The notes under the pieces: generated by a model
What the model saw: only the letters and a program-made list of their open reading frames with translations
Databases searched by the model: none
What the model was told of the DNA's origin: nothing
Program-made: the position numbers and the translations under genes
Shown: piece by piece, positions 1,938-4,642 of the stretch
How the letters are laid out: each line of letters opens with the position of its first letter
How positions within the stretch are numbered: position 1 is the stretch's first letter
Origin: a virus
Direction: 5' to 3' (one strand)
Length of the DNA stretch: 24,457 bases
IMG/VR virus record: IMGVR_UViG_3300044618_000229
Span: 1-24,457 of that record

Positions 1938-2560
1938 TAGGTAATAATGACTTTAGGTTTGACGTTGCTCTTCAAAAAGAATTTGAACATGAAGAAAATC
2001 TTGCAAATTTATTAAAAGAATTAAGCAAAGACCTTGGAGGCGATAATAGAAGGTTTGAACTAAAGCATGATTATCAAACTCACAAAACAGGAAATGTTTA
2101 TATTGAATTTGAATCAAGGCAAAAGCCAAGCGGAATCTCAACATCTCAATCCGACTGGTATGTTTTCCTTCTTGAACCTATCTTAATTTTTATACCAACT
2201 AAAGTCCTAAAAGAAATTGCACATAATTATCCAGTAAAATTAGGAGGCGATGATTTAACCTCAAAAGGCTATTTAATACCAATAATTGATTTAATAAAAG
2301 ACTCACAACTAAAAAACAAACCCATGAGTTACACCCCCCAACCCAACACCTTCACCCTGTTCGTCAACGACAAAGGCGACAACCCGAAACGCCCGGATTA
2401 CAGGGGCGATGTGGTTCTCCCCGATGGAACCAAGATGCGCCTCTCCGGGTGGGTCAAGGAATCCAACGGCAAGCGGTTCATCAGCGGTAAAGTAGAGCCG
2501 ATGCAGCAGCAGACCAGCGGTGGAAATCTTGCACCACAAGATGGCGATATGCCTTTTTAG
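1934..2560 (+). CDS. Nuclease-like domain joined to DUF736/SSB-like domain
   Basis: A 208-residue frame starting with an ATGA overlap. Residues 1-130 resemble a small phage PD-(D/E)XK nuclease-type domain: RRFELKHD supplies an E-x-K, followed by TGNVYIEFESRQKPSGI and SDWYVF and ending near GGDDLTSKGYLIP. Residues 131-208 resemble the DUF736-like phage family (TLFVNDKGDNPKRPDYRGDV, then RLSGWVKE) and end in DGDMPF, like the acidic DxxPF tail of single-strand DNA-binding proteins. The first part is AT-rich and the second GC-rich, with the change near an internal ATG at 2324. It is either a true fusion or two products from one frame. Both domain calls are by eye. Confidence 0.6.
   Translation: MIGNNDFRFDVALQKEFEHEENLANLLKELSKDLGGDNRRFELKHDYQTHKTGNVYIEFESRQKPSGISTSQSDWYVFLLEPILIFIPTKVLKEIAHNYPVKLGGDDLTSKGYLIPIIDLIKDSQLKNKPMSYTPQPNTFTLFVNDKGDNPKRPDYRGDVVLPDGTKMRLSGWVKESNGKRFISGKVEPMQQQTSGGNLAPQDGDMPF
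2324..2560 (+). CDS. Possible internal-start DUF736/SSB-like protein
   Basis: An in-frame ATG at 2324 has a typical local start context (AAACAAACCCATGAG) and would give a 78-residue protein that begins exactly where the DUF736/SSB-like domain begins. In many phages such domains are stand-alone proteins of about this length. The acidic tail DGDMPF could recruit replication proteins as in SSB. This may be the original gene, with the upstream nuclease-like frame later placed in frame without a stop. Whether both products are made cannot be told from sequence. Confidence 0.4.
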   Translation: MSYTPQPNTFTLFVNDKGDNPKRPDYRGDVVLPDGTKMRLSGWVKESNGKRFISGKVEPMQQQTSGGNLAPQDGDMPF

Positions 2561-2573
2561 TGTAAATTTGTGC
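2561..2573 (+). promoter_or_regulatory. Putative promoter, Bacteroidetes -7 element
   Basis: TAAATTTG at 2563-2570 matches the Bacteroidetes -7 consensus TAnnTTTG exactly and lies just after the stop at 2560. The surrounding string GTGTAAATTTG-T/C-GC recurs at the promoter at 4974. A TTG at the usual distance upstream is not seen, so only one half is clear. Transcription would begin near 2577 and enter the structured region before the terminator. Confidence 0.5.
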
Positions 2574-2576
2574 CTT

Positions 2577-2691
2577 AGATACATTTACCAATAGACGCAT
2601 TGCTTGTATAGCAGCCAAGTAATGCTACCGATAAAGGGTCATGCTTGAACCCCTACCCCGGCTGCTGCTATCAGTCGGGGTATTTTTTTTT
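2577..2691 (+). ncRNA. Candidate structured noncoding RNA or attenuator leader
   Basis: About 115 bases between the promoter-like element and an intrinsic terminator, with no convincing reading frame. A 9-bp hairpin (one G-U pair) forms between 2597-2605 and 2617-2625, with the 11-base loop 2606-2616. A weak 4-bp hairpin (2636-2639 with 2649-2652) follows, then the terminator hairpin. The first loop contains TAGCAGC (2609-2615), exactly complementary to GCTGCTA (2664-2670) in the terminator loop, so the two loops could kiss or form an alternative pairing that affects termination. It could be a small phage RNA or a leader that attenuates the replication initiator at 2698. No known RNA family is recognised. 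Confidence 0.45.
2654..2691 (+). terminator. Intrinsic terminator
   Basis: A perfect 7-bp stem, TACCCCG (2654-2660) with CGGGGTA (2676-2682), encloses a 15-base loop and is followed by a run of T residues (2683-2691). It lies between the promoter-like element at 2563 and the start codon at 2698, so it either ends a short transcript or conditionally terminates leader RNA. The loop is long for a simple terminator and pairs with the upstream hairpin loop. Confidence 0.7.
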
Positions 2692-2697
2692 ACCGCT

Positions 2698-3402
2698 ATG
2701 AAGCAAATATCTTGGTTTAAATTCTCCCCAGCCGATTGGATGATGGGCAGAATATCACGGCAACCTGCCGAAGTTCAAGTCGCATTCCTACGCCTTTGCT
2801 GCGTGTATTGGAACGCAGAATGTGAGATGACTCACGACCACGCTCACTTGGAGGGGGACGGACACTTGGAGCGACTACTCACAACCAAACTTGTTGAAAC
2901 CAATGGTCAGCACATCTTCATTAAATTCCTTGATATTCAATGGGAAGAGGCCAATTTGCACCGTACAAAGATGTCCGAAGCAGGCAAAAGAAGTGCCGAA
3001 CGAAGGCTCACTAAGATTGTAGAAACTCCAACTCACGTTGAACCTATGTTGAACCTACCTTCAACCAAGGTTGAACCTGTGTTCAATAGAGAAGAGGAGA
3101 GAAGAGAAGAGGAGAGAAGAGAAAATGTGAGTGAGCAGTTCGAGGGTTTTTGGAAAGCATTCCCAAGAAAGACCGACAAGGCAAGAGCCAAGCGTTCATT
3201 CCTACGTCTAACCAAGACCGAGCAAGAACTGGCAGTCAGCAACATTCAACGCCTCTACTCCGAAACCCCTGCACAATTCGTTCCGCACCCTTCCACCTAC
3301 CTAAACGGCAAAAGATGGGAGGACCAAGCCATCCAACGAACACCTAACTTCGCCTACTCAAACCTAACCTCCGATGATGAACCCTTACCAGTTGTCCGCT
3401 GA
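2698..3402 (+). CDS. Phage replication initiator / helicase-loader-like protein
   Basis: A 234-residue protein. The frame is open from 2641, but the start at 2698 is chosen because 2641-2697 covers the terminator and the protein then begins MKQISWFKFSPADWMMGR, a typical phage initiator N-terminus. Residues about 1-100 form the N-terminal domain. A linker (about 108-142) rich in proline and then EEERREEERREN follows. The C-terminal part (FWKAFPRKTDKARAKRSF, ending PHPSTYLNGKRWED) resembles the C-terminal domain of phage O-like replication proteins. It probably binds the origin and loads the DnaB-type helicase encoded next, whose start overlaps it by 29 bases. The DNA encoding the linker holds iteron-like repeats and a purine tract. 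Confidence 0.7.
   Translation: MKQISWFKFSPADWMMGRISRQPAEVQVAFLRLCCVYWNAECEMTHDHAHLEGDGHLERLLTTKLVETNGQHIFIKFLDIQWEEANLHRTKMSEAGKRSAERRLTKIVETPTHVEPMLNLPSTKVEPVFNREEERREEERRENVSEQFEGFWKAFPRKTDKARAKRSFLRLTKTEQELAVSNIQRLYSETPAQFVPHPSTYLNGKRWEDQAIQRTPNFAYSNLTSDDEPLPVVR
3037..3086 (+). repeat. Iteron-like repeats, putative replication origin
   Basis: Three direct copies of GTTGAACCT begin at 3037, 3048 and 3070, spaced 11 and 22 bases, or one and two helical turns. Two inverted copies of the TTGAAC core lie at 3060-3066 (TTCAACC) and 3081-3086 (GTTCAA). All lie in the interdomain linker of the initiator gene and are followed by an all-purine tract. Lambda has its origin iterons inside gene O in the same arrangement, so this is a good candidate origin; function is inferred. 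Confidence 0.5.
3088..3125 (+). repeat. All-purine tandem repeat tract
   Basis: Every base from 3088 to 3125 on this strand is a purine. It contains two exact tandem copies of the 15-base unit GAAGAGGAGAGAAGA (3091-3105 and 3106-3120), encoding the EERRE repeats of the linker. Strong purine asymmetry next to iterons may serve as an unwinding or strand-bias element. It could also simply reflect a charged protein linker. Confidence 0.7.
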
Positions 3403-4642
3403 ACGCAAACTGCTCGGCTGCCTCATGGACAAGTTCGTGAACCGAACTGTCCTCCTAACCCAAATTCCTGAACGCCTATTCACAGGCAACAACGTCCTCC
3501 TGTACCGGGCTATCGAGTCCCTCCACAAAGCAGAGCGAGAGGTGGACATCGTTACCGTCTACAAATACCTCGCAGACCAAGGTCAAGCCCATGTCCTGCT
3601 CGAAGGCATCGACCCCGAAGCAGGGCTTGTCAGCAACTGGAAGACCTACGCATCCGACCTGCACGACCTTTGGAAGGAACGTGAAGAAGCAAGAATCATG
3701 GAAGAACTCGCCCATGACCGGGACATACCTAAAGCCTTTCAACGCTACCAATCCATTCAAGCCGTTGAATCCAACGCCTCCGAATCGTCAGCCCATGAAC
3801 TGGCAAAGGATTTTCTCGTAAACATGAACGAGGTCCGGGAAGGCAGACGCAAGGACCAAATCTACCAAACCTTTATCCGACCGCTTGACAACATCTGCAC
3901 TGGGTTCAAGCCATCCGAGTTCATCCTCGTAGGTGGTAGGCCTGCAATGGGTAAGACCCTGCTCGCTTTGCAAATAGCGATGAACCAAGCCATGGCCGAT
4001 ATTCCCGTCGTATTCTTCACGATGGAGATGTCAGCAGACCAACTGACCCAACGTATGCTTTCCAACCTTGGAACCATGGACGGGTCTGCATTCCTAAAAC
4101 CCGACGAGCGTATCAGCACCGAGCAGTTCCTGACCTTGGCCCAAAAAGCCGACCAACTGAAAGGCAAGCCTCTCTACATCGTGGACTTGCACCAAGCCAA
4201 CCTCGACCGCATCGAGGGGGAGATAGCGAAACTTAAGGCCAAGTTCGGAATCGTTGGTTTCTACCTCGACTACCTGCAACTTGTAGAACCTGCCAAGATT
4301 GACAAGCCCAAGCCCAAGATTGAGCAGATGACCAACATTAGCAAGCAACTCAAAGCAATCTGCAAGAGGCAGAAGGTCTTCGGGGTCGTGGTTTCTTCGC
4401 TCTCAAGGGCAACCGAAGGCAGGGCCGACCATCGTCCCATCATGTCTGACCTGCGAGAAACGGGGCAACTGGAGTTCGATGCCGACAAAATCGCTTTTGT
4501 TTACAGGCCCTACGAACACGACAAGAGCGCAGAGCAAGACCTGATGGAAGTCATCTTCCGAAAGAACCGGAACGGAAGCCTTGGAATCGCCCAAGTTCAA
4601 TGTCAACTGCCCTACACCAAAGCCAACGAATATCCGCTATGA
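3374..4642 (+). CDS. dnaB: DnaB-type replicative helicase
   Basis: A 422-residue protein. The N-terminal domain (about 1-110, beginning YQLSAERKLLGCLMDKF) matches the DnaB N-terminal domain. The RecA-like C-terminal domain has Walker A GGRPAMGKT at 187-195, the motif FFTMEMS near residues 215-221, Walker B FYLDYLQLV at about 296-304, and an arginine-containing segment (LRETGQLEFDADKIAFVYR) near the end. Length is slightly below typical bacterial DnaB. It forms a hexamer that unwinds DNA at the fork using ATP. It overlaps the initiator gene upstream (29 bases) and the nuclease gene downstream (ATGA), so the three are probably one operon. A second ATG at 3377 is possible. Confidence 0.92.
   Translation: MMNPYQLSAERKLLGCLMDKFVNRTVLLTQIPERLFTGNNVLLYRAIESLHKAEREVDIVTVYKYLADQGQAHVLLEGIDPEAGLVSNWKTYASDLHDLWKEREEARIMEELAHDRDIPKAFQRYQSIQAVESNASESSAHELAKDFLVNMNEVREGRRKDQIYQTFIRPLDNICTGFKPSEFILVGGRPAMGKTLLALQIAMNQAMADIPVVFFTMEMSADQLTQRMLSNLGTMDGSAFLKPDERISTEQFLTLAQKADQLKGKPLYIVDLHQANLDRIEGEIAKLKAKFGIVGFYLDYLQLVEPAKIDKPKPKIEQMTNISKQLKAICKRQKVFGVVVSSLSRATEGRADHRPIMSDLRETGQLEFDADKIAFVYRPYEHDKSAEQDLMEVIFRKNRNGSLGIAQVQCQLPYTKANEYPL

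Follow-up and report, generated by a model that had tools for sequence, protein, structure and literature searches.

Terminator loops are usually regarded as spacers. In the phage RNA described here no part covaries more strictly than the loop of its intrinsic terminator, which is tied to a second hairpin over 16 natural versions. The RNA was found in a stretch of viral DNA of 24,457 nucleotides, which was analysed as a whole and is called the window below. We suggest, with moderate confidence, that it is a cis-acting leader RNA (attenuator) of a phage replication operon, the terminator of which docks on the 5′ hairpin. A sequence-only reading of the same DNA had proposed a new phage small RNA or a kissing attenuator of replication genes, and this proposal gains support, since the element is conserved, occurs once per phage, precedes genes of the replication module and falls outside Rfam. 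The pattern points to a switch or lock of a previously undescribed type, acting at the RNA level on the replication genes of phages. Should docking control termination or the survival of the RNA, the element would be a compact regulator with natural versions that are directly comparable. It also gives a first handle on replication-entry control in these freshwater phages, an uncultured group with probable Bacteroidota hosts.

Organization of the element in the window

The element occupies the gene-free interval of 137 bases between the end of ssb (2560) and the ATG at 2698 on the plus strand (Table 1). No gene lies within 2561-2697, and the promoter-like sequence followed by a terminator hairpin, which the sequence-only reading had reported with no gene between them, is recovered as the −7 box and H3. 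The layout is that of an attenuator or leader, with the intrinsic terminator between the promoter and the first start codon and no other gene in between. H1 lies exactly where it had been placed before, and its stem comprises 10 bp instead of the 9 bp given there. The TAGCAGC/GCTGCTA match between the loops holds as well, the H1 strand being the exact complement of the complete 7-nt terminator loop. Seven of the nine H1 loop nucleotides take part in the pairing, which is 8 nt long with the closing G counted. A scanner for a hairpin and a terminator with fully complementary loops reports one instance in the window. In 150 dinucleotide-shuffled copies of the window, searched on both strands, it reports two, a mean of 0.013 per copy. 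The nested fold of 2570-2700, taken by itself, beats shuffled sequences by a modest margin (z −2.6).

Table 1. Features of the element and the adjacent genes in the window
Feature	Position	Strand	Basis and remarks
SSB ending GDMPF, directly upstream	2324-2560	+	phrog_18154 SSB, E 5.2e-07, residues 138-193 of ORF 1934-2560
−7 box TAAATTTG	2563-2570	+	Bacteroidota primary promoter type, TAHHTTTG
ACATTTAC block, RNA 5′ end	2581-2588	+	Conserved in alignments; 9-10 variable nt from the −7 box
Hairpin H1	2597-2625	+	Fold; 10-bp stem, 9-nt loop UAUAGCAGC at 2607-2615
H1 strand of the loop-loop helix, AUAGCAG	2608-2614	+	Complementary to the full terminator loop
Linker GAUAAAGGG and small hairpin H2 (GGGU...ACCC)	2630-2652 (H2 about 2636-2652)	+	Fold
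H3, intrinsic terminator	2654-2691	+	Terminator scan; 11-bp stem 2654-2682, T-run of nine 2683-2691
Terminator loop CUGCUAU, H3 strand of the loop-loop helix	2665-2671	+	
Primosomal/replication-initiation-like protein, first gene past the terminator	2698-3402	+	PHROGs: phrog_9327 primosomal protein, E 8.4e-21; phrog_270 replication initiation, E 1.4e-17
DnaB-like replicative helicase	3374-4642	+	DnaB_C, E 3.9e-60

The ORF upstream of the element fuses a phrog_13596-like domain to SSB with the usual acidic tail tip GDMPF, and the start of SSB itself may be the internal ATG at 2324. On the other side, ATG 2698 stands 6 nt beyond the T-run; a longer in-frame ATG at 2641 would fall within H2. The first ATG follows the T-run by 0-20 nt in 63/63 distinct RNAs of the main group, with a few cases where it is out of frame and the likely start is some bases further on; in the distant loci L478-L484 it stands somewhat farther away. 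The downstream genes vary in kind, from primosomal/initiator-like proteins with differing N-termini (one with DUF6291) to a VapE-like primase and an N6/N4 DNA methylase that stands ahead of such genes. One loop version occurs with different genes, and one gene occurs with different versions. Hence, because versions and genes assort freely, we regard the element as a module rather than a site tailored to one protein.

Covariation of the two loops

Related RNAs were collected with a detector blind to the loops, which asked for AAGGG followed by a hairpin with 9 bp or more and a T-run. With the truncated RNAs L351, L378 and L046 and the cellular chance match L322 set aside, it yields 63 distinct untruncated phage RNAs, and the full complement of the terminator loop is present upstream in 62 of them. 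These 62 complementary RNAs carry 12 loop versions (H1 side/H3 side): ATAGCAG/CTGCTAT, ATTGCAG/CTGCAAT, ATTCCAG/CTGGAAT, GTCGCAG/CTGCGAC, TTCCGG/CCGGAA, ATTCAGG/CCTGAAT, ATTCCGG/CCGGAAT, ATTGAGG/CCTCAAT, GTAGAGG/CCTCTAC, TGCTGG/CCAGCA, TGACCG/CGGTCA and TTGCGG/CCGCAA. Distant loci add four more, 16 in total, namely GTCGTAG/CTACGAC, GTCGAAG/CTTCGAC (inside an 8-nt loop), GTAGCAG/CTGCTAC and TAACGG/CCGTTA. The loops are complementary in 64/65 matches of the primase query and 58/58 of the second DnaB query; for the version count over both queries the truncated L351 and weak model matches were left out and L398 was kept. The stretch of conserved complementarity matches the terminator loop end to end, at a loop length of 6 nt as well as 7 nt.

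Covariance model R1 was built on the nested helices only, and its alignment of 63 rows (61 distinct) is fitted to H1-H3 and not to the loop-loop helix. In this alignment 98.3% of the cells of the loop-loop helix are paired; 5 of its 7 pairs show both-side changes and none shows a one-side standard change. The H3 stem pairs in 100% of cells, the H1 stem covaries with both-side changes in 6 of 7 modelled pairs, and the whole structure is far above shuffled and slid controls, both in covariation score and in the cells that pair. Along a minimum spanning tree of 59 sequences (without L338 and L045), a rough stand-in for phylogeny, 23 double and no single changes fall on the loop-loop helix, and the double/single changes are 17/17 for H1, 7/25 for H3 and 2/22 for H2. 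The sequence-only reading had staked its proposal on conservation and covariation in related phages and on compensatory changes among homologues; the kissing pair covaries over all 16 versions, and compensatory changes are found in it as well as in the H1 stem.

Closely related RNAs show the same at single pairs. In 84 nt, L199 and L206 differ solely at one loop-loop pair, C-G in one and G-C in the other, and L342 and L366 differ by two loop pairs and one other nucleotide. Twenty-three cellular-genome terminators that share the stem pattern served as a negative control, and an upstream loop partner is present in 0/23. Two hairpin loops with 6-7 bp of complementarity kept by covariation have the form of a kissing loop, and from this pattern we infer that the terminator docks on the H1 loop as a kissing interaction.

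The loop pairing is broken in L045 (1769-1868; 2 of 7 mismatched) and in L481 (394-486; one mismatch). In both, H1 and the terminator derive from two different loop versions; they may be recombinants, i.e. natural losses of pairing, or chimeric contigs.

Distribution

All phage sequences are IMG/VR contigs, many of them near-duplicates, and the counts refer to distinct RNAs where possible. The DnaB query returns 80 viral loci, of which 53 reach 850 nt or more upstream of dnaB (the other 27 were left out). The RNA is present in 52 of the 53, and in the remaining one, L046, it is cut by the contig edge. With a second DnaB query (64% identical) the RNA is present in 67/67 loci with at least 850 nt upstream, 55 recovered via the AAAGGG detector and 12, with CTAAGGG, read directly; the typing list for this query held 79 of 80 loci, 12 of which were left out as too short upstream. 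The primase query returns another 80 loci. Eleven with a match starting on or close to the contig edge were left out, and 65 of the 69 given to the covariance model match with E about 5e-6 or better. The four loci of the 69 with no model match are L461, L463, L464 and L469; L463 and L464 are relatives of the downstream primase without the element. In 12/12 large contigs there is exactly one copy.

The linker and H2 are near-invariant in the main group and replaced in the distant loci L475-L484, which keep the promoter, H1, H3 and the loop pairing. Distant loci with primases 49-51% identical have other stems and another H2, yet the loop pairing is kept.

No phage in the INPHARED collection matches the window at the DNA level, blastn finds no named phage record that carries the element, and among named phage records the window helicase finds only relatives below 60% identity. 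The element was not found in 296 Bacteroidota genomes, in a search that had no positive control and carries little weight. A Hymenobacter match of 32.5 bits was rejected as a plain terminator without H1.

Promoter and likely host

TAnnTTTG stands upstream of the RNA in 62/62 complementary RNAs, where nn is AA, AC, TA, TC, CA or AT and never contains G. A TAHHTTTG promoter rule is given for Flavobacterium (PMC6847099), and the −7 box is placed at −12 to −5 relative to the start (PMC9723704). By the latter rule the start would be expected at about 2575, the sequence-only reading having set it at 2577. No TTTG at the usual −33 spacing was seen by eye upstream of TAAATTTG. Since TAnnTTTG without G fits the TAHHTTTG rule, the phage hosts are probably Bacteroidota.

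We also considered the inverted repeat TGTAAAT...ATTTACA around the start as an operator. The repeat is broken wherever the −7 box reads TAACTTTG, and the promoter reading is thus preferred.

At 2562-2588 of the window the conserved blocks TGTAAATTTG and ACATTTAC flank a 9-nt spacer, which varies among phages like a cassette (GCCTTAGAT, AGGCGTACT, CCGAAGATT and others). The blocks and the spacer possibly form a regulator site over the transcription start. The ACATTTAC block is missing from L193- and L338-type loci.

Proposed mechanism

We suggest the following course of events at the replication-operon leader. Polymerase would start at the TAAATTTG promoter or arrive from the upstream ssb gene. 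The transcript would form H1 first, then H2 and the terminator hairpin H3, which, while forming, would dock its whole 6-7 nt loop onto the waiting H1 loop. Both stems and the loop-loop helix can coexist, so the RNA that docks would also be the one that terminates, about 115 nt long, compact and protected at its 3′ end. Docking may make termination faster or more reliable, or it may shield the 3′ end once the RNA is released. The replication gene would then be made solely by polymerases reading through the terminator, since there is no room for a promoter between the terminator and the ATG. In this way the leader would set, and probably regulate, the amount of replication protein. Transcription itself, the efficiency of termination, its favouring by docking and any signal that relieves it are predictions from the sequence.

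The pairing fits an intact terminator because it covers the loop exactly whether this has 6 or 7 nt; a terminator-blocking sequence would be expected to invade the 5′ arm of the terminator, unlike the conserved pairing. No conserved competing antiterminator pairing appears across the versions in nascent folds, computed with a model without pseudoknots. Two other pairings were rejected. In nested nascent folds of several versions H1 opens to pair with H3; the model is pseudoknot-free, and the alternative registers are not conserved. A second register, GCAGCC/GGCUGC, involving the terminator 5′ arm, is present in the window, and we reject it as a general mechanism because by eye it is absent from the CCGGAAT and L338 versions. 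Against attenuation it can be said that phage genomes are compact, so an ATG beside a terminator need not mean attenuation.

It is possible, though we do not think it probable, that the element is a small RNA gene in its own right. Its docked loops would then protect the 3′ end and shape the RNA for a host or phage partner, and the downstream gene would be expressed from upstream read-through transcripts. The promoter box of its own in 62/62, the strong terminator, the lack of an ORF, the single copy per phage and the free assortment with genes on either side would all suit such a gene. However, a free RNA gene has no need of the position directly before a replication-module gene, which the element takes in the examined loci, and the segments left exposed to meet a target (linker, H2) are not retained in distant relatives. 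The leader and free small RNA roles may both be true.

Beyond the leader role, the loop pair may serve as a swappable self-recognition code, with a replication lock for each lineage and a released leader RNA that also recognises terminator loops of the same version in the cell; we consider this unlikely. P4-type immunity (PMC4825925) offers an analogue of such a specificity code, and so does plasmid incompatibility. If true, the code would give RNA-only copy-number control or interference between co-infecting phages, and the concerted switching of the loops would be a mark of selection to escape a rival's version.

That the loops act between molecules altogether, H1 of one leader reading H3 of another for copy-number control or co-infection interference, appears quite improbable to us. 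By duplex energy the versions are nearly orthogonal, with cognate pairs at −7.1 to −10.5 kcal/mol and most others weaker, although cross-pairing occurs between neighbours such as TTCCGG and ATTCCGG. In RNAs that are otherwise nearly the same, both loops change together (L199/L206, L342/L366), and phages with helicases at least 96% identical to that of the window carry 7 versions, which speaks for action between molecules; but the H1 stems diversify too, loop turnover alone is no proof of selection for change, and the partner in cis is always closer at hand and ought to prevail.

A DNA element (a replication origin or primosome-assembly hairpin), which the place between ssb and primosome/helicase genes might suggest, is very improbable, since G-U pairs are frequent in H1 and H3, the terminator T-run and the TAnnTTTG promoter are retained, and the proteins accompanied are unrelated (DnaB type and VapE primase type).

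Comparison with known systems

The window and eight related loci give no Rfam 15 match at the gathering score; the best weak match is Spot 42, with 22.9 bits against a gathering score of 80. In titles and abstract openings of the open-licence PMC literature we found no described equivalent.

In the P1 c4 RNA, short RNA-RNA pairing within one transcription unit accompanies premature termination. Kissing complexes such as ColE1 RNAI/RNAII and TAR/TAR* have 6-7 nt loops that are fully paired, and the loop sequence gives the specificity; their hairpins are on different molecules, whereas here both lie on one strand of one predicted transcript.

UpsM is a small RNA of the dcw leader of Rhodobacter (PMC5089854), and bacterial attenuators and leader terminators of this kind resemble the element in having a promoter, a structured untranslated leader and an intrinsic terminator before the first gene of the operon; termination would likewise release a small RNA. 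They differ in that here no antiterminator was found, the loop of the terminator has its partner in a hairpin loop upstream, and the operons are phage replication operons. In phage P4 a processed CI RNA pairs with seqA and seqC, which flank it upstream and downstream (PMC4825925); the likeness lies in the untranslated leader of a phage replication operon, the short RNA-RNA pairing within the transcription unit and premature termination. Here the partner is an intrinsic terminator loop, and the conserved complementarity is that between the H1 loop and the terminator loop, not that of a processed RNA with two flanking leader sites. In the type I toxin-antitoxin pairs bsrG/SR4 and bsrE/SR5 a terminator loop also joins loop-loop pairing; these are two antisense RNAs acting in trans with a toxin mRNA (PMC7430163), none of which is present here. 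The element also lacks the conserved ligand-binding core of a riboswitch, since neither H2 nor the GAUAAAGGG linker is retained in L475-L484.

Related architectures

In L453 and L454 (2862-2992) H2 is a hairpin about 30 nt longer, and H1, H3 and the loop pairing are retained. Downstream of dnaB, on the minus strand of L002 at 1015-1105 (also in L003, L043, L051 and L058), the hairpin loop ATTATTAGGTCG complements a terminator-like loop TAATAAT; these loops are AT-rich and nearly invariant, and a pairing between them is unproven. A different architecture occupies the same place before a VapE-like primase in L461 (2740-2915) and L469 (1016-1191), with primases 69% and 63% identical, respectively. 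There, the loop TGGAACC or TCGAACC of a CCCG/CGGG hairpin complements GGTTCCA or GGTTCGA in a large branched terminator, and the two loci are one compensatory change apart.
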